Below are positions 39,186 through 53,699 of a stretch of DNA of 64,000 nucleotides, piece after piece. The position numbers and the translations under genes are program-made. Each line of letters opens with the position of its first letter. Within the stretch, counting starts at the first letter, position 1. The notes beneath the pieces are model-generated. The model saw nothing but the letters and a program-made list of their open reading frames with translations. It searched no databases and was not told the DNA's origin. Source of the DNA: Microbacterium suwonense (GTDB lineage: Bacteria; Actinomycetota; Actinomycetes; Actinomycetales; Microbacteriaceae); contig NZ_AP027728.1 of NCBI RefSeq assembly GCF_030296555.1, positions 2,914,001 through 2,978,000 on the forward strand, in the 5' to 3' direction.

Positions 39186-39461
39186 TCAGGCCGTGCGGCG
39201 GCGGCCGTCGGATGCGTTGGCCGGGAACATCTCCAGCGTGAGGTCCGTGAGGAAGTAGTCGATCGGCGTGCGCATTGCGACGGCGATGCGCAACAGGGTG
39301 TGGATGCTCGGCATCGCGCGGCCGGATTCGTATGCCCGGATATTGGACGAGTCGATGCCGCTTCGCGAAGCCAAATCGTCCTGAGTCATCGTCGAGGACT
39401 CGCGTGCGCCGCGAATGCGACCCCCGATGTGCACAGCAGCAGGGGAGGGGACGCGAGGCAT
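39186..39461 (-). CDS. XRE-family regulator (controller-protein-like)
   Basis: A 91-residue protein built around one helix-turn-helix: MTQDDLASRSGIDSSNIRAY then ESGRAMPSIHTLLRIAVAMR. It is divergent from the restriction-modification gene with a long imperfect palindrome between them. Small XRE proteins beside restriction genes often act as controller (C) proteins that time expression; that role is inferred from position. TGAGGA precedes the ATG. Confidence 0.85.
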   Translation of the reverse strand: MPRVPSPAAVHIGGRIRGARESSTMTQDDLASRSGIDSSNIRAYESGRAMPSIHTLLRIAVAMRTPIDYFLTDLTLEMFPANASDGRRRTA

Positions 39462-39486: not shown

Positions 39487-39520
39487 ACTTGTGCCAGGGT
39501 TAACAAACCCGGGTACAAGT
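39487..39520. promoter_or_regulatory. imperfect palindrome between XRE and Type ISP genes
   Basis: ACTTGTGCCAGGGTT (39487-39501), AACA, AACCCGGGTACAAGT (39506-39520): 13 of 15 arm positions are complementary. It ends 29 bases before the restriction-modification start and is a likely operator for the divergent XRE protein. Confidence 0.65.
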
Positions 39521-39549
39521 ACCGCCCGGGGTTTCCCTGGGAGGTGCAG

Positions 39550-42500
39550 ATGGCCGTCGAGCCACTGGTTGCGGAAGAACTCGACGCGCTCCTTGCGGAG
39601 TTCCGCGGACTTGCGGACAGCAAGCGCATGGTCGGCAACTATCTGGAGCAGCTCGCGCGCCACTATCTGACCGTCGAGCCACTGTGGGCGGATCAGCTGG
39701 GGGCGGTGTGGCTGTGGAAGGACTGGCCTGGCCGCGATGGTCGCCCGGACACGGGCATCGATCTGGTCGCCGAGATCCAGGGTGGCGGGTTGCTGGCCAT
39801 ACAGGTCAAGTTCTTCGCTGAGACCCATCGGATGCAGAAGGGCGACCTCGACTCGTTCTTCGAGGCGATGGGCAAGGAGCCCTTCACCGAGGGCCTTGTC
39901 ATCGACACGACCAGTGCGCCGTGGTCTTCGAACGCCGAGGAGGCGCTGAAGAACCGTACGAAGCCGGTGCGTCGGGTATCGCTCGCGGAGCTGCGGCACA
40001 GTTCCATCGACTGGTCGACATACGAGCTGCTCAAGCCCGAGGTGGCGCCCGAGCGCCATGCGCTCAAGACGTTGCGTGCCCACCAGCACGAGGCCGTGCA
40101 CGCTGTGATGGAGGGCCTCAAGCCGGGCAGCGGCCAGGATCGCGGCAAGCTCATCATGGCCTGCGGCACGGGCAAGACCTTCACTGCGCTCAAGCTCGCC
40201 GAGCGGTGGACGAACGAGATCGCCGGCGGCGCCGCAACTGTGCTGTTCATGGTGCCGTCGTTGGCGCTGCTGCAGCAGTCACTCGACGAGTGGTCGCGTG
40301 AGCGTGACCCGGAACTGGGCTTCCGTGCATTCGCGGTCGGGTCCGACACCAACATCGGTCGTCGCAAGAACGACGATCTCACCAGCATCCTCATGGAGGA
40401 TCTCGGGGCGCCGGCGACGACTGATGGCCCGACGCTCGCGAAGCTGCTCGGCGATGTCGACGAGGAGCACGAAGGACTCACTGTCGTCTTCTCGACCTAC
40501 CAGTCGATCGAGGCGGTCTCCGAGGCGCAGCGCCTGCGCGGCGACACGTTCGATCTCGTCATCTGCGATGAGGCGCACCGGACGACCGGCGTGACACTCG
40601 CGGACGAGAGCGAGTCGCACTTCGTCAAGGTGCACGACAACACGGTGATTCCGGCATCCGCCCGCGTCTACATGACCGCGACTCCGCGTATCTTCGCGCC
40701 GGAGGTCAAGAATGCGGCGTCCCAGAAATCGGCCGAGCTCGTGTCGATGGACGACGAGGAGCTGTTCGGGCCGGTGCTGTACCGGATCGGCTTCGACGAA
40801 GCCGTGCGCAAGGGGCTGCTCACCGACTACAAGGTCGTGGTGCTCGGCATCAGCGAGGACGAGATCGTCGAGACGCTGCAGCAGGAGCTCGCCTCCGAGG
40901 GGCGCGAACTGGTTGTGACCGACGTCGCCAAGCTCATCGGCTGCTGGAACGCCCTGGCCAAGCGCAACGCGGGTGCGATCGCCGAGGGCTTCGGCACGGA
41001 TGTCGCGCCGATGCGCCGGGCAGTCGCGTTCGCGAAGGACATCAAGACGTCGAAGGGTGTCGCGAGCGACTTCACCGCGCTCGTCGAGGGACACCTCTCG
41101 AACATCACCAACGACGACGAGACCGATGACCTGACCGTCGAGGCGGAGCACGTCGACGGCACCATGAACGCCACTCAGCGCGGGGAGTTGCTGGATTGGC
41201 TGAAGGCCGCACCGGAAGAGGACCAGTACGGTCGACCGGTCGCGCGCGTGCTCACGAATGCGCGTTGCCTCAGCGAGGGTGTGGACGTACCAAGTCTGGA
41301 TGCGGTGCTGTTCCTCAGCCCGCGCAAGAGCCAGGTCGACGTGGTGCAGGCCGTGGGGCGCGTGATGCGCCGGTCGCCGGGCAAAAACCTCGGCTACATC
41401 GTGCTGCCGATCGCGATTCCCGCGGGCGTCTCGCCCGAGGAGGCGCTCAACGACAACGAGCGCTACAAGGTCGTCTGGCAGGTGCTTCAGGCGCTACGTG
41501 CACACGACGAGCGGCTGGATGCCGCGATCAACCAGGCGACGTTCACGGGGAAGCTCCCCGAGCAGGTCGTGATCGAGCGGGTCCCGCTTACCTCGACGAA
41601 GAAGCGCGACGGGTCTGCGTTCGACTCCGAACGGGATCACGCGGAGAAGCCCGACTCGGGCGAGCAGTCCGGCCCGTCGCACCTTGCGCCGACTCTTCCC
41701 GGGCTGACCTCGACGGCGGATGCCTGGAAGGACTCGGTCTACGCCAAGCTCGTCGCCAAGGTCGGCGACCGCATGTACTGGGACGACTGGGCCGGCGACA
41801 TTGCTCTGATCGCTCAGCGTTTCATCGCTCTGATCACCGCGCACGTCAATGCTGAAGGCGCCGACCGAGCGGCGTTCGAGGGATTCGCGAAGGCGCTGCG
41901 TGCCACGGTGAATCCCGAGGTCACCGAAGCCGAGGCGATCGAACTGCTGGCGCAGCACCTGATCACCAAGCCGGTATTCGAGGCGATGTTCCCCGAGGGA
42001 TCCTTCGCACAGGACAACCCGGTGTCGACGGCGATGGAGCAGGTGCTCGCGACGTTCGCCGAGAACTCCGCCTTCGCCCGTGAGCGCGAGCCGCTCGACA
42101 CCTTCTACGCCAAGGTCACCGAGCGTATCCGCGGGCTGGACTCCGTGCGAGCCAAGCAGCAGATGCTGGTCACGCTCTACGACAAGTTCTTCACCAAGGC
42201 GTTCCCGCTGCTCGCTGACCGCATGGGCATCGTCTTCACCCCGGTCGAGGTGGTCGACTACATCCTTCGCTCAGCGGACGCCGTACTGCACCAGCACTTC
42301 GGTAAGCGGCTCAGTGATGAGGGTGTGAACATCCTCGAGCCGTTCGTCGGGACGGGCACCTTCCTGACTCGACTGATGCAGACCGGGCTGATCAAGCCGG
42401 AGGACCTGACGCGCAAGTACACGCAGGAGCTTTTCGCCAACGAGATCGTGCTGCTGAGCTACTACATCGCCGCGGTGAACATTGAGAGCGTGTATCGCGA

Positions 42501-44490
42501 GTTGTGCGCCGAGCACGGAGTCGAGCCGGTGGATGGTGGATTCCCGGGGATCTCGCTGACGGATACCTTCGCGATGGACGAGCGGGACAGTCAGCTGGCC
42601 GGTGGGGTGTTCCCGGAGAATACCGCGCGGCTGGAGAAGCAACGGGCGACGAAGGTGGACGTCATCGTGATGAATCCGCCTTACCGCGCGGGACAGTCGA
42701 GCGCGAATGATGGAGCGCAGAACGCAAAGTATTCGAAGACGGATGCGCGGATCGCGGAGACGTACGCGAAGCGGTCAACCGCTTCGAACAAGAACGGGCT
42801 CTACGACTCGTATTACCGCGCACTCCGTTGGGCGACCGAACGCTTGGGAGACCAGGGAGTGCTCGCCTTCGTCTCGAACTCCGGATTCATCGATGGAGGC
42901 ACGGCTGCAGGGGTGCGTTTGAGTTGGGCCGATGAGTTCAGCGACATCATTGTCTACAACCTGCGCGGGAACGCCCGCAACATAGGTGAAGCGCGAAGAC
43001 GGGAGGCTGGGAACGTCTTCGGTGAAGGCACGCAGACCGGTATCGCTCTTACGATCCTCGTCAAGGACTCCACGCAAGCAGCGCCGGCGCGGGTCCATTA
43101 CGCGGACATTGGCGACTACTTGAGCCGCGAGGAAAAGCTGGACCAGATACGGGTCGACGCCTCTGTCGATGCCACAGCCTTCCAGTTGCTGTCCCCTAAT
43201 GAAGAGGGCGACTGGATCAATCAGCGTGACGAACGTTTCGCGCAGTGGCGGGCGCTCGGGGTGAAGGCAACGAAGGGGCAAGCCGAAACTGTCGGGGTAT
43301 TCCGGGATTTCTCTAACGGAGTGAAGACGAACCGGGACGCTTGGACATTCAACTTCTCGCTAGCATCACTTCGGGATGGCGTCCGAGTGCATGTGAATCA
43401 TCTGAATTTGGAGCGGGGGAGGGTCTGGGATTTGATCCGCGCTGGCGATTCGCGCGCTCCCGAGCAGATTCTGTTTCGAGACTCCACTAAGGGAACATGG
43501 TCGTCCTCGAATATCGCAGACCTGAAGCGTAATCGTGACACAGTAATAGACGCGGCAGGGTTCCGATCGGCGGTGTATCGACCATTCATGAAGCAGCACG
43601 TCTACCTCGATGGCGCAGGCAAGCTCACCGAGAGGCTCTACCAGATACCGAAGCTGTGGCCGGCTGCGAGCCTTTCAAACGTCGCGATCAGCGTCGACGC
43701 GGGCAGCGGGACTCCGCTCCTTGTTGATAATGTTCCTGATCTCCACGTCAACGGTGACGCCCAGGTCTTCCCCCGTTACACATGGGAACCGGCATCCGCA
43801 CCCGACGGCGCTCTCAACCTCGACGCGCTCGCGGCATCCGATTCGGACGAGATCGTCGACGGCTACCGCCGCATCGACAACATCACCGACGCCACTCTCG
43901 CCACCTACCGTGAGGTCCACGGCGGCGCCGTCACGAAGGACGACATCTTTTACAGCATCTACGCGTTGCTGCATCACCCGACCTATCGGGAGAGGTATGC
44001 CGCCGATCTGCAGAAGATGCTCCCGCATATCCCGCAGGTGGAGGGCTTCATCGAATACGCGCGCATCGGCCGCGCCCTCGCCGACCTCCATGTCGATTAC
44101 GAGTCCGTCAAGCAGCATCCGCTGGGGGAGGAACTCTCGCTCACCGCGCCCGAAGACGCTTACGAGCGATACCGCATCGACAAGCTCTCGTGGATCTCGC
44201 GCAAGGACCACACGGCGATCCGCTACAACTCGCATCTGACGATCACCGGAATCCCGGAAGATGAGGCGCTCTACAAGGTCGGTGGCCGCAGCCCGCTCGA
44301 ATGGGTGATCGACCGGTACAAGGTGACGACCGACAAGAAGTCCGGCATCGTCAACGACCCGAACGCGTGGCTGCGTGAGCACGAGAATCCGCGCTATGTC
44401 GTCGATCTCATCCGCTCGCTCGTCACGGTCAGTCTGGAGACCCAGCGGCTGATCGCCGAGTTGCCCGCGTTCGAGGTGATTGAGAACTGA
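39550..44490 (+). CDS. single-chain Type ISP restriction-modification enzyme
   Basis: A 1646-residue LlaGI/LlaBIII-like enzyme that cuts, translocates and methylates DNA. Domains in order: Mrr-type nuclease (GID71 and Q85-V-K87, residues 1-150); superfamily 2 helicase with Walker A ACGTGKTF near 203, CDEAHRTTG near 339, YMTATPR, and QAVGRVMRR; an alpha-helical coupler (about 700-850); adenine-N6 methyltransferase with motif I EPFVGTGTF near 930 and motif IV NPPY near 1041; and a target-recognition region (about 1130-1500). The ATG at 39550 follows GGGAGGTGCAG; the open frame upstream crosses the operator. The recognition region is noticeably lower in GC than the rest. It heads an operon with a GTPase and a small protein. 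Confidence 0.93.
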   Translation: MAVEPLVAEELDALLAEFRGLADSKRMVGNYLEQLARHYLTVEPLWADQLGAVWLWKDWPGRDGRPDTGIDLVAEIQGGGLLAIQVKFFAETHRMQKGDLDSFFEAMGKEPFTEGLVIDTTSAPWSSNAEEALKNRTKPVRRVSLAELRHSSIDWSTYELLKPEVAPERHALKTLRAHQHEAVHAVMEGLKPGSGQDRGKLIMACGTGKTFTALKLAERWTNEIAGGAATVLFMVPSLALLQQSLDEWSRERDPELGFRAFAVGSDTNIGRRKNDDLTSILMEDLGAPATTDGPTLAKLLGDVDEEHEGLTVVFSTYQSIEAVSEAQRLRGDTFDLVICDEAHRTTGVTLADESESHFVKVHDNTVIPASARVYMTATPRIFAPEVKNAASQKSAELVSMDDEELFGPVLYRIGFDEAVRKGLLTDYKVVVLGISEDEIVETLQQELASEGRELVVTDVAKLIGCWNALAKRNAGAIAEGFGTDVAPMRRAVAFAKDIKTSKGVASDFTALVEGHLSNITNDDETDDLTVEAEHVDGTMNATQRGELLDWLKAAPEEDQYGRPVARVLTNARCLSEGVDVPSLDAVLFLSPRKSQVDVVQAVGRVMRRSPGKNLGYIVLPIAIPAGVSPEEALNDNERYKVVWQVLQALRAHDERLDAAINQATFTGKLPEQVVIERVPLTSTKKRDGSAFDSERDHAEKPDSGEQSGPSHLAPTLPGLTSTADAWKDSVYAKLVAKVGDRMYWDDWAGDIALIAQRFIALITAHVNAEGADRAAFEGFAKALRATVNPEVTEAEAIELLAQHLITKPVFEAMFPEGSFAQDNPVSTAMEQVLATFAENSAFAREREPLDTFYAKVTERIRGLDSVRAKQQMLVTLYDKFFTKAFPLLADRMGIVFTPVEVVDYILRSADAVLHQHFGKRLSDEGVNILEPFVGTGTFLTRLMQTGLIKPEDLTRKYTQELFANEIVLLSYYIAAVNIESVYRELCAEHGVEPVDGGFPGISLTDTFAMDERDSQLAGGVFPENTARLEKQRATKVDVIVMNPPYRAGQSSANDGAQNAKYSKTDARIAETYAKRSTASNKNGLYDSYYRALRWATERLGDQGVLAFVSNSGFIDGGTAAGVRLSWADEFSDIIVYNLRGNARNIGEARRREAGNVFGEGTQTGIALTILVKDSTQAAPARVHYADIGDYLSREEKLDQIRVDASVDATAFQLLSPNEEGDWINQRDERFAQWRALGVKATKGQAETVGVFRDFSNGVKTNRDAWTFNFSLASLRDGVRVHVNHLNLERGRVWDLIRAGDSRAPEQILFRDSTKGTWSSSNIADLKRNRDTVIDAAGFRSAVYRPFMKQHVYLDGAGKLTERLYQIPKLWPAASLSNVAISVDAGSGTPLLVDNVPDLHVNGDAQVFPRYTWEPASAPDGALNLDALAASDSDEIVDGYRRIDNITDATLATYREVHGGAVTKDDIFYSIYALLHHPTYRERYAADLQKMLPHIPQVEGFIEYARIGRALADLHVDYESVKQHPLGEELSLTAPEDAYERYRIDKLSWISRKDHTAIRYNSHLTITGIPEDEALYKVGGRSPLEWVIDRYKVTTDKKSGIVNDPNAWLREHENPRYVVDLIRSLVTVSLETQRLIAELPAFEVIEN

Positions 44491-44523
44491 CAGAATGAGT
44501 CACAGACGGATGGAGCCGCGCAG

Positions 44524-45690
44524 ATGAAGAATATGGTCGACCAGCACATCGCCGTGTTCGGTGAGAGCGGCAGTGGCAAGACCGTGCTGCTCTCATCCTT
44601 TTATGGTCCCACGCAGGAGAAGGGGTTCGCCGAACGCAACCGCTTCAACGTCGTCGCGGAGAGCCAGACGCAGGCGGTTTCGCTGTACCAGAACTATGTC
44701 GGTATGAGGGACTCCCGCATCCTGCCCGAACCCACACAGTTCCGCTCCACGGCATATTCTTTCCTGCTCAAGATGGCTGTGAGAACGCCCGGGGCGCAGA
44801 AGAACAAACCGTCGCACGACATGATGCGGGTCGTCTGGCACGACTACCCTGGCGAGTGGTTCGAGAAGGATGTCTCGGGCGAAGAGGCGGATCGGCGGGT
44901 CGAAGGGTTCCGGGAACTCCTCGGCTCTGATGTCGCCATCCTTCTCGTAGACGCGCAGCGCCTGATCGACAACGCAGGTCAGGAGCATGCCTATCTCAAG
45001 TCGCTGTTCTTCAACTACCGCCAAGGGTTCGAAGCGTTGAAGGACAGTATCCTCGATGACGGTTCACCGCTCACGCGTTTTCCTCGTATCTGGATGATCG
45101 CGCTTTCCAAGGCGGACCTTCTCCCCGATCTCGACGTCCACGCCCTCAAAGACCTGGTCATCGGCAAGGCTGGCGCGGATCTCGCTCGGCTCAACGAAAC
45201 GATCTCCTCTATGGTTCAAGCGCCCGACGCACTCTCTGTCGGCGATGATTTCCTGCTCCTGTCGTCGGCGAAGTTCACCCCGGAGGAGATTCGACTGGAA
45301 GACCGCATCGGCCTCGACCTGATCCTGCCGATCGCGTCGGTTCTGCCGTATGAGAGGCACTTGCGCTGGGTGAACGCGAAGCAGCTGCCGGTCGAGGTCG
45401 GCAAGCGCCTGCTCAGCAGTGCGGATGCCCTGGCTGGTGTTCTCGGCGGAGTGCTCGGTTTGCTGGCACGGCGCGCTCCGGTCAGGATCCGCCCCGTGGT
45501 CGGGCTCGTTGCCGGTTTCCTCTCGAAGGACAAGGTTGAGCAGTTCGTCGAGATGGGACGGGACAGGCTCGAAGAAGTCGAGCGGACCGCCGTCGAGAAG
45601 CGCGAGTACCTCATCGCAACTTTGGCGAAGTTTCGTATCGACCTCCAGGCGGGCGAAGCGGACGATGTGCTGCTGCGAAGCCTGCGATGA
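44524..45690 (+). CDS. TRAFAC-like GTPase of the restriction island
   Basis: A 388-residue P-loop protein. GESGSGKT at residues 13-20 is the Walker A, HDYPGEWF near 108 serves as the DxxG switch motif, and ALSKADLLPD near 195 is an SKxD version of the NKxD guanine motif, so GTP is the probable nucleotide. Residues 290-340 hold a hydrophobic segment (ADALAGVLGGVLGLLARRAP ... VGLVAGFLS) that may touch a membrane, followed by a charged coiled stretch. It begins 33 bases after the Type ISP stop (GGAG upstream) and overlaps the next gene. Comparable GTPases occur in predicted conflict systems; the function here is not known. Confidence 0.75.
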   Translation: MKNMVDQHIAVFGESGSGKTVLLSSFYGPTQEKGFAERNRFNVVAESQTQAVSLYQNYVGMRDSRILPEPTQFRSTAYSFLLKMAVRTPGAQKNKPSHDMMRVVWHDYPGEWFEKDVSGEEADRRVEGFRELLGSDVAILLVDAQRLIDNAGQEHAYLKSLFFNYRQGFEALKDSILDDGSPLTRFPRIWMIALSKADLLPDLDVHALKDLVIGKAGADLARLNETISSMVQAPDALSVGDDFLLLSSAKFTPEEIRLEDRIGLDLILPIASVLPYERHLRWVNAKQLPVEVGKRLLSSADALAGVLGGVLGLLARRAPVRIRPVVGLVAGFLSKDKVEQFVEMGRDRLEEVERTAVEKREYLIATLAKFRIDLQAGEADDVLLRSLR

Positions 45691-46019
45691 GATTCATCTG
45701 GGCGACCCGCGGTCGCTCCTGGGGATTCACCTTCCTGTCGGACGGAGGTTTTCAGGATCCGCTTCGTGCTTATGAGCAGGTGATGTCCGTCCTGGACGGC
45801 GCGGCGAGCGGCTGTGTGCGGGCTGGCGATGCTGTGGCGCTGAAGTTTGGTGATCCAGATCAGCGTCGTGATCGGGCTGGCCGACTCATCCCGCACTCCT
45901 TCGTTCTCTACGACGACCTTGCTCAGCGCGTTGCCACGGTCGAGGACGGGATGCGTGAGGTCTGGCCGCTGGTCTCTGAACGCTACGCCGAGGTGTGGGA
46001 GAAACCGACTGCGCCGTGA
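45687..46019 (+). CDS. uncharacterised 110-residue protein coupled to the GTPase
   Basis: I do not recognise a named family. The protein starts MRFIWATRGRSWGFTFLSDG and contains 'GDAVALKFGDPDQRRDRAGRLIPHSFVLYDD'. It is compact, without membrane segments, with a basic core and an acidic, Trp-rich end (DGMREVWPLVSERYAEVWEK). Its ATG overlaps the GTPase stop (ATGA), so equimolar production and a physical partnership are likely. It could be a GTPase-activating, sensing or adaptor subunit (inference only). Confidence 0.7.
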   Translation: MRFIWATRGRSWGFTFLSDGGFQDPLRAYEQVMSVLDGAASGCVRAGDAVALKFGDPDQRRDRAGRLIPHSFVLYDDLAQRVATVEDGMREVWPLVSERYAEVWEKPTAP

Positions 46020-46022
46020 CTC

Positions 46023-46200
46023 GTGGCCCCGTGGCAAGCACTGGCAGATGGAGTCATTAGCGATAATGAGAGTCGTGAACTCACACAGATCGCGACGATC
46101 CTCGACGTGCCTGTGCCGGAGGAGATTGCGTGCGACGCGGCTGCGGAGTCATCCCGTAGGGTCGTGGGTTACCCACCCGCTCAGAAGCTGCGTGGGAACA
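46023..46200 (+). pseudogene. TerB-like fragment
   Basis: From a GTG at 46023 the frame reads VAPWQALADGVISDNESREL then TQIATILDVPVPEE, resembling the acidic helical repeat of TerB-like domains, as found at the ends of some DnaQ-type exonuclease proteins. After about 50 residues the reading loses character and joins unrelated DNA. It is probably the stump of a longer gene. The match is short and tentative. Confidence 0.35.
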
Positions 46201-46242
46201 GCAGCGCACCAGCCCTTGCTACCGGTGCGCAGTCCCCGTACC

Positions 46243-46380
46243 TATGCGGATGCCGTGCCCACCCGCGTCATCCTGATCGACGGCAACCGCTTGGCGCGGC
46301 TGATGATCCGGTATGGCGTCGGCGTGCAGGTACATGAGACGTTCAGGGCGATTGAGATCGACGAAGATTTCTTCGCATGA
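46243..46380 (+). pseudogene. C-terminal fragment of an Mrr-type restriction endonuclease
   Basis: The last 45 codons before the stop at 46380 read YADAVPTRVILIDGNRLARL then MIRYGVGVQVHETFRAIEID and EDFFA. This is the conserved C-terminus of Mrr endonucleases ('VLIDG..LA.LMI.Y.VGV....TY.I..ID.DFF'). The nuclease core that should precede it is absent, so this is a deletion remnant fused to the TerB-like fragment in another frame. Confidence 0.75.
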
Positions 46381-46399
46381 AGCTTCACCTTCATCCACA

Positions 46400-47037
46400 T
46401 TGGACGCGGTGAATTCGGCCTCGGCATCCGCTCCTGCCGCTCGCGCAGCATCCCTCATCTTCTTGAGAACAGCCGCGGCCGCGCGGTAGTTGCTCTTGTC
46501 GGTGACCTCGAGCGTCTGCAGCACGATCTCCCGATAGACGGGCAGCGTGTCAGTAGGCCGCTTCGCGATCCACCACGAACGTGACGAGCTTCTGATCCCA
46601 GCCGCGTCCGTCGAGCGCGATGCCGATGTGCGCGTCGGCGACGGCATCCGTGTGCAGTCCCGCCTCTTCGAGGTCGGTGTCGGCGATCGCGGCTCGGTGC
46701 TGCGCGATGCTCCGCCTGGGTGAGTGGGGGAGCCGTCGTGCGCACCGCTTGGCCGTACGCATCGAGCAGCGTTCACACCAGGCCGCCCTGCATCCCCGAC
46801 GAGTCATCGGATCTCAGGGTTGCGTGGGTCGCAAGGATGATCGCCCGCTCGATCATGGGAATGAGCGCGGGGGTCGCAGCCGGCTGAGCCTCGAGAAGAC
46901 CGACGGTGTCGCACGCGTCGGAGGCGTAGCTGTTCGCCTGCCAGTGGTCGTAGAAGCGTCGACTCGGCGTGAGGTCGCGGTTCACGATCGCCAGCAGATC
47001 GGCAGGATCATCGGATGGATGAGTTATCCACAGATTA
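46400..47037 (-). pseudogene. decayed SWIM-type/DUF6880-like protein, C-terminal part
   Basis: On the minus strand a single protein can be followed through at least three frames: WITHPSDDPADLLAIVNRDL, 'AIILATHATLRSDDSSGMQGG', 'DLEEAGLHTDAVADAHIGIALDGRGW', and 'DTLPVYREIVLQTLEVTDKSNYRAAAAVLKKMR'. The 'ADDSSGM.G' and 'LP.YR......NYR.A...L..MR' patterns match the helical C-terminus of SWIM zinc-finger/DUF6880-like proteins. Frame changes lie near 46780, 46720 and 46555, and the end abuts the Mrr fragment. Unlike the single-base breaks elsewhere, this is genuine decay. Confidence 0.55.
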
Positions 47038-47081
47038 ACGAAACTATCTTCGAATGTCGGTGGTGTCTGAGAGTATGAAGT

Positions 47082-51172: not shown

Positions 51173-53699
<2,527 letters not shown>

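Follow-up and report, generated by a model that had tools for sequence, protein, structure and literature searches.

A conserved gene pair for a GTPase and a predicted longin-like small protein occurs independently of its neighbouring Type ISP restriction enzyme in Microbacterium suwonense

In a stretch of 64,000 nucleotides from Microbacterium suwonense (contig NZ_AP027728.1, positions 2,914,001 to 2,978,000; hereafter the window), the gene for a Type ISP restriction-modification (R-M) enzyme of 1646 amino acids (39550..44490, + strand) is followed by a GTPase gene of 388 codons (44524..45690, + strand) and a gene for a small protein of 110 amino acids (45687..46019, + strand). The latter two are referred to as the pair. 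Do the three genes build one machine, or do they only share an address? A first-pass annotation favoured the former, namely a regulated or composite defence operon in which the GTPase would be a back-up effector triggered when restriction fails or a controller of translocation like McrB/McrC. The 33 bases that it counted between the restriction and GTPase genes were confirmed (44491-44523), and because of this short gap the three genes are probably co-transcribed in the window. Of the operon reading, a conserved pair, probable co-transcription and an enrichment near defence-type genes stand, but the composite with Type ISP does not. Pair and enzyme look like hot-spot neighbours rather than one machine: the pair is probably cargo behind the Type ISP gene in a restriction hot spot, with a transcript that is probably shared, and not part of the enzyme.

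Relatives were found at 174 places in one scan of the genomes of 84,980 species, one genome per species, and the best 80 were kept; both flanks are about 10 kb long in 60 of these 80 loci. The small gene adjoins the GTPase gene in 79 of them, and the 80th ends at a contig edge. In the window, the small open reading frame (ORF) begins inside the stop of the GTPase gene (ATGA, 45687-45690). Start codons for the same 4-base overlap exist in 77/79 loci and for a 7-base overlap in 2/79, when the in-frame start nearest the expected place is taken (another in-frame start lies nearby in 17/79). An earlier set of 19 fetched loci plus the window had the 4-base overlap in 18/20. In a survey of 396 genomes of the order, the GTPase was detected in 19, the window's genome included, and a strong match to the small protein stands beside it in the same 19; a phylum-wide draw gave the GTPase in 2/396 genomes, again with the window's genome included. 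The 80 loci and the 19 order genomes partly overlap (e.g. L115 and G289), and G118 is not part of A1 and A2. Seven further small-protein matches in the 396 genomes were weak (E 2.5e-4 to 9.3e-4) and were taken as chance, because their genomes show no GTPase match; frames were inspected on the + strand, where two of the seven (L050, L051) belong. Viral contigs gave nothing but two GTPase fragments of 26 residues each. A same-strand downstream neighbour at a distance of 100 bases or less follows the pair in only 9/73 loci. A mirror-tree correlation of 0.67 (77 loci) is uncorrected for shared ancestry and was not used. Altogether, the GTPase and the small protein form an obligate pair with a recurrent overlap.

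No comparable bond with Type ISP was found. A Type ISP gene lies within the fetched flanks of one of the 80 pair loci (L085); a weak match of 21% identity to part of Type ISP in L092 (E 3e-5) is outside this count. Among the 396 order genomes, 42 carry Type ISP, 19 the pair and two both, with 2.0 expected by chance. These two are the window's genome and G304, in which pair and Type ISP are 351 kb apart. When single domains were considered in the 19 pair genomes, there were 33 N6_Mtase and 14 Mrr_cat matches; besides the window's own Type ISP, those no farther than 10 kb from the pair were N6_Mtase matches in G238 and G276 and a Mrr_cat match in G066.

The enzyme also occurs without an intact pair. 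A sister locus, L187, carries this Type ISP gene too (two parts, 88% and 72% identical) and lacks the pair. Along the DNA, similarity between the window and L187 ends with the Type ISP stop codon and sets in again at 47048, and the 2.56-kb segment in between (44492..47047), which holds the pair and gene debris, has no counterpart there. Plasmid D40 of Curtobacterium sp. MCBD17_040 (L261) encodes a Type ISP enzyme that shares 96% of 1260 compared residues with its counterpart on a C. flaccumfaciens plasmid (H2); on D40, a frameshifted remnant is left of the small gene, and the 8.2 kb fetched showed no GTPase. On these counts a composite of GTPase and Type ISP is not supported, and the pair is independent of Type ISP. 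The first-pass annotation had itself named a pair found mostly away from restriction genes as evidence to the contrary, and as far as the 15 restriction and defence queries described below can show, this is how the loci are distributed: 63/80 lack any match to them.

The GTPase belongs to the TRAFAC class and to the DO-GTPase2 family (PF19993, 36.8 bits with a cut-off of 27), and its fold matches are to GTPases. The motifs G1 (GESGSGKT, residues 13-20), G3 (DYPG, 107-110) and G4 (SKAD, 195-198) were described correctly in the first-pass annotation and are conserved across 79 aligned sequences, i.e. the window and 78 relatives, with L073 and L139 omitted for a stop in frame. Thus, D107, P109, G110, S195, K196 and D198 are invariant (79/79), and G16, S17, G18 and K19 are kept in 78/79 with one gap. 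A G5-like SSA at residues 247-249, absent from that annotation, can be added. Beside DYPG, E111 is a candidate for the DO-GTPase2 Walker B glutamate (E in 75/79, D in 4/79). All 79 sequences match DO-GTPase2 at E 0.01, and a genome-level PF19993 search recovers the pair's GTPase in 17/19 pair genomes (G289 and G318 were missed). The generic P-loop families AAA_22 and AAA_16 stay below the cut-off for the window GTPase and match 39/79 and 29/79 of the sequences at E 0.01. An McrB-like controller was considered and rejected: the GTPase resembles DO-GTPase2, and the Pfam and PADLOC matches of the pair include neither an McrB nor an McrC family, which leaves the comparison with McrB unsupported. 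The AlphaFold model has a mean pLDDT of 82.1, with values below 50 at residues 87-89, 91-97 and 319-334; the C-terminal part is helical and poorly predicted around 319-334. Fold matches at E 0.001 or better number 37 and include YcjX, GIMAP2, GBP, atlastin and MglA, with modest TM-scores.

In the case of the partner, the ORF of 110 residues noted earlier is, to judge by its conservation, a genuine gene, because nine residues (W5, R8, G9, W12, G13, P57, D62, R66 and W93) are invariant in 79/79 aligned sequences, with L099 and L147 not in the alignment, and because the overlapping start recurs. The invariant residues fall in two loops, TRGxxWGF and DPxxRxDxxGR. The window's small protein is without a family match in Pfam, PADLOC and NCBIfam, any one Pfam family reaches at most 2/79 members at E 1, and a sequence search of the PDB with profiles of both proteins gave nothing below E 0.05. 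The AlphaFold model is confident (mean pLDDT 96.3, pTM 0.89) and its secondary structure runs b-b-a-b-b-b-a-a, which is the longin element order; the order is longin-like rather than roadblock-like, the roadblock being the domain of MglB. The top eight PDB entries in Foldseek are the Lst4 longin, SEA (2), GATOR1 (3), FLCN-FNIP2 and TRAPPII, where entry titles name complexes and not always the matched chain. Each of these complexes presumably bears a longin or roadblock domain. The small protein is therefore called longin-like in its predicted layout, and its fold matches, which are not significant, point to GTPase-regulator complexes.

Several known systems resemble the pair in part. DO-GTPase systems have been described with a three-domain partner, GAP1 (Kaur et al. 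2020, PMC7159879), with two paralogous GTPases in 38% of the systems and zinc ribbons in 60% of the GTPases. Common to them and the pair are the DO-GTPase2 match, a constant partner gene directly downstream and variable surroundings; the partner differs, as that of the window is 110 amino acids long and without a consistent Pfam match. The words 'longin' and 'roadblock' are absent from the main text of that paper (PMC7159879). In the window GTPase, G1 begins at residue 13 and leaves no room for an N-terminal zinc ribbon. Of the families GAP1-N, GAP1-M and GAP1-C, the search covered GAP1-M, which turned up in 1/19 pair genomes and there 2.6 Mb away from the pair. This lone GAP1-M lies 2.5 kb from a second DO-GTPase2 match, weak, below the cut-off and remote from the pair, the only such second match in the 19 genomes (a search for DO-GTPase2, not DO-GTPase1). 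Since GAP1-M is rare among pair genomes and distant, membership in the GAP1 systems was rejected, although the GTPase is in the DO-GTPase2 family.

MglB, with its roadblock domain, is reported as both GTPase-activating protein (GAP) and guanine nucleotide exchange factor of MglA in one study, and with GAP activity only in a report cited there (PMC11016934). The likeness is that of a bacterial GTPase with a small roadblock-class regulator, MglA being among the GTPase fold matches; the difference lies in another GTPase family and a small protein without Pfam match. The eukaryotic longin GAPs NPRL2/GATOR1, FLCN-FNIP2 and C9orf72-SMCR8 (PMC8213707) share the predicted layout and are the kind of complex among the top fold matches, but the window's partner is one bare domain of 110 residues and its Foldseek E values are 0.06 or worse. 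In these GAPs, SMCR8, FLCN and NPRL2 have catalytic arginines for which a role as finger was either proposed or observed (PMC8213707), a mechanism that may serve as a model for Arg8 and Arg66 of the small protein. A literature search gave no paper under PF19993, DO-GTPase2 and related names, and no description of such a pair in phage defence by title or abstract start among the open-licence matches listed.

The surroundings of the pair were searched with 15 restriction and defence proteins as queries. A match was obtained in 17/80 pair loci and in 3/60 controls (20-kb windows drawn from six genomes, all in the same order; Fisher p 0.007), and without L125, whose genome supplied queries, in 16/79 pair loci (p 0.012). 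L104 and L109 match the exonuclease query alone, L122 has a 44-residue match, and two of the three control matches are to the UvrD and exonuclease queries. Neighbours were also clustered (448 genes, of which 446 lie no more than three positions from the pair in the 80 loci; two were added). The commonest family within three genes of the pair is HsdM-like (6/80 loci), and a family including a proven HsdR reaches 5/80. A constant third gene was looked for and rejected, as even this largest family reaches only 6 of 80 loci. The R-M types near pairs differ, and often the strand too. In L117, HsdM, a Methylase_S fragment, an unknown gene, GTPase, small gene and HsdR follow each other on one strand, which places the pair inside a Type I restriction locus. 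Among 150 of the 155 immediate neighbours (five under 60 amino acids were dropped), no Pfam family occurs in more than three and no PADLOC family in more than two; ordinary metabolic families are as common there as restriction families. As a whole, the distribution of the pair is rare and patchy and enriched near restriction or defence-type genes. Because of the query matches and the Type I locus in L117, the pair looks like independent defence-island cargo. G+C of the pair is below that of the flanks in 56/64 loci. The 11 Microbacterium rows call for 8 changes on the GTPase tree, of which well-supported branches force at least 4, and we infer that the pair is mobile by transfer.

The best reading of 44524-46019 is a GTPase with its own longin-like regulator, probably a stand-alone defence switch. 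That it is an independent mobile two-gene unit, made of a DO-GTPase2-type TRAFAC GTPase and a translationally coupled longin-like small protein, we regard as rather likely. The small protein would bind the GTPase switch region as a regulator, whether as GAP, as exchange factor or as platform, and its invariant Arg8 or Arg66 is a candidate for the catalytic finger. An infection signal would then change the nucleotide state of the GTPase, and its variable, partly hydrophobic C-terminal region would act, perhaps at the membrane, so that the infected cell is stopped. The regulator role of the small protein is fairly probable, and so, from genomic context, is a defence function of the pair. Membrane or abortive action of the GTPase is a tentative idea, on the doubtful side. 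The hydrophobic stretch proposed at residues 290-340 does exist (best 19-residue Kyte-Doolittle mean 1.77, from residue 296), but it is clearly hydrophobic in a minority of the family only. With its loci enriched for restriction or defence-type genes, the pair may have a defence role, even as back-up to restriction in general.

Some results weigh against this stand-alone switch. A Kyte-Doolittle mean of 1.6 is reached in the C-terminal part by only 23/79 GTPases, and elsewhere in the protein by 12/79. No Foldseek match of the small protein attains E 0.001; the best is 0.064, with TM-scores of at most 0.48 among the 50 matches listed, and sensor and PAS domains enter its list from rank 9. The controls come from six genomes of a single order, most pair loci have no match to the 15 queries, and the enrichment is inflated because some of these queries were taken from pair loci. 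Genus labels on the GTPase tree are more clustered than shuffled ones (45 vs 58.0 changes; 0/200 as low), so part of the spread is vertical; the pair has likely spread by both transfer and descent. Lastly, three adjacencies to Type ISP (the window, the Curtobacterium plasmids and L085) exceed random placement, and a looser functional link may also account for them.

These adjacencies are also what speaks for the first proposal, in which the pair would be dedicated to the Type ISP enzyme, either as its controller or as its back-up effector. In the window the genes share strand and a 33-base gap. The pair is present on three C. flaccumfaciens plasmid records, and on the plasmid viewed it lies directly upstream of Type ISP. 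In L085, Type ISP is 2.3 kb from the pair, and because a symporter (gltP-like) gene follows 4.4 kb beyond the pair, L085 may be the same hot spot as the window. However, the plasmid gene order is opposite to that of the window, the pair of L085 lies across a helix-turn-helix (HTH) gene from Type ISP, and the pairs of window and L085 sit on different well-supported twigs of the GTPase tree. Together with one Type ISP in 80 pair loci, no association at genome level, and the lack of an intact pair beside Type ISP in L187 and L261, this renders such a dedicated role very improbable. As a separate observation, the C. flaccumfaciens plasmid with pair and Type ISP carries SAVED, a DncV-like nucleotidyltransferase and ThiF alongside (L054:12697-16630), CBASS-like by annotation.

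A back-up unit set off by the inhibition of whichever R-M system is resident, for which PrrC inside Type I loci is the comparison, would suit the HsdM-like and HsdR families near the pair, the position in L117 and the enrichment; it is set against by the many loci without query match and by the varying R-M types and strands, and we consider it unlikely. A specific form of this idea is a minimal GTPase-longin switch, built like the eukaryotic Rag-GATOR/Arf-GAP modules and acting as a mobile guard of restriction, in which the longin-like protein would hold the GTPase at rest and release it when any resident R-M system is inhibited or overrun; this, too, is unlikely. The pair could also be a housekeeping or signalling unit (polarity, envelope stress), like MglA-MglB or YcjX, that is merely mobile. 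Fold matches to YcjX and MglA and the frequency of metabolic neighbours agree with this, while the rare and patchy occurrence (19/396 in the order, 2/396 in the phylum), the low G+C and the hot-spot and plasmid sites do not, and it too seems an unlikely account. Finally, the GTPase could be a toxin and the small protein its antidote. L068, L073 and L139 have a GTPase gene with a premature stop beside an intact small gene, and L261 has kept a small-gene remnant without GTPase. These are four cases only, no toxin domain is among the Pfam, PADLOC and NCBIfam matches, and toxin first with antidote second is the less usual gene order, which makes a toxin-antitoxin pair quite unlikely.

The Type ISP gene itself was annotated as complete, and this holds: Mrr_cat_2, ResIII, Helicase_C, ISP_coupler, N6_Mtase and Type_ISP_C all score above Pfam cut-offs, and the full-length PADLOC model for Type ISP covers residues 4-1641 of 1646. 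Its start had to be moved, as 39487 is no start codon and the ATG at 39550 is preceded by GGAGGTG. The Mrr nuclease, SF2 ATPase, coupler, N6 methyltransferase and ISP C-terminal recognition domain are all on one chain, the five-part build described for Type ISP enzymes, and next to that description (PMC4666363) the window's enzyme shows nothing out of the ordinary. Between the window and L187, DNA similarity of the Type ISP genes is lost at 43235-43750, in the C-terminal recognition part, and is back before the gene end, as expected for a swap of the target-recognition region. The sister gene in L187 runs in two overlapping frames (L187:7788-7812), by decay, a frameshift switch or an assembly error.

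The window's hot spot is bounded by a sodium:dicarboxylate symporter gene (gltP-like; Pfam SDF) and a Clp ATPase gene (clpC-like; Clp_N/AAA_2). Among 23 genomes with a symporter match, 16 other Microbacterium genomes have both anchors within 20 kb, and the content of the interval is very variable among them. Divergent from the restriction gene lies an HTH_3 regulator of 91 amino acids (39186..39461, - strand; Pfam HTH_3, 48.4 bits). Homologues with 51-68% identity stand beside R-M cassettes in L185, L187, L188, L189, L190, L055 and L085. A recognised R-M cassette is present in 5/16 intervals, all five with the divergent HTH gene: Type ISP in L187, cassettes with ResIII in L188 and L189, and with an Eco57I methylase in L185 and L190. 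In L192 the HTH gene is kept as a broken copy.

Between the HTH and restriction genes, a candidate operator/promoter block (39487..39520) was read by eye, with 6-base inverted arms ACTTGT ... ACAAGT. Also by eye, GTGCCAG[AG]GT is found at the same place in 8/9 HTH-to-cassette intervals and is shifted by one base in L190, and a CCGGGTACAAGTAC-like stretch that varies more comes after it; seven of the nine are from this hot spot, the other two being L055 and L085. The palindromic arms of the window are not kept in the other intervals, and a sigma-70 promoter scan gave no passing site. The cassettes (Type ISP, Type III-like and Eco57I types) are exchangeable, and the kind of HTH regulator and the promoter-like block beside them are shared; the regulator may act as a controller for the safe expression of incoming R-M genes. 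RptR, a repressor of Type I R-M islands in E. coli that binds TAGCTA (PMC12255303), is likewise a small regulator beside R-M genes with a conserved site, a likeness by description only; it is known from E. coli with its TAGCTA site, unlike the HTH_3 regulator described here.

Downstream of the pair lie remnants of an exonuclease gene (46086..46121, + strand; PADLOC PDC-S48, E 5e-5 for the fragment), intact at L188's copy of the hot spot (Pfam RNase_T), and of the C-terminus of an Mrr-type endonuclease (46225..46380, + strand; PADLOC mREase_IV, E 2.4e-8); similar Mrr-type fragments are beside the pair in L139 and L091. The clpC-like frame (51173-53113; open frame 703 in the window's genome vs about 840 or more in most relatives) is either a real truncation or a sequencing frameshift.

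In conclusion, the operon reading is corrected, since adjacency in a defence hot spot is not partnership, and a compact, testable two-gene unit is isolated, whose small gene is new to Pfam, PADLOC and NCBIfam. The hot spot, with one kind of regulator and exchangeable restriction cassettes, lends itself to asking how restriction can be turned on safely once it has been transferred. If the longin-like fold is true, actinobacteria would possess a one-domain GTPase regulator with a dedicated GTPase, and this would give a handle on how GTPase switches entered bacterial immunity.

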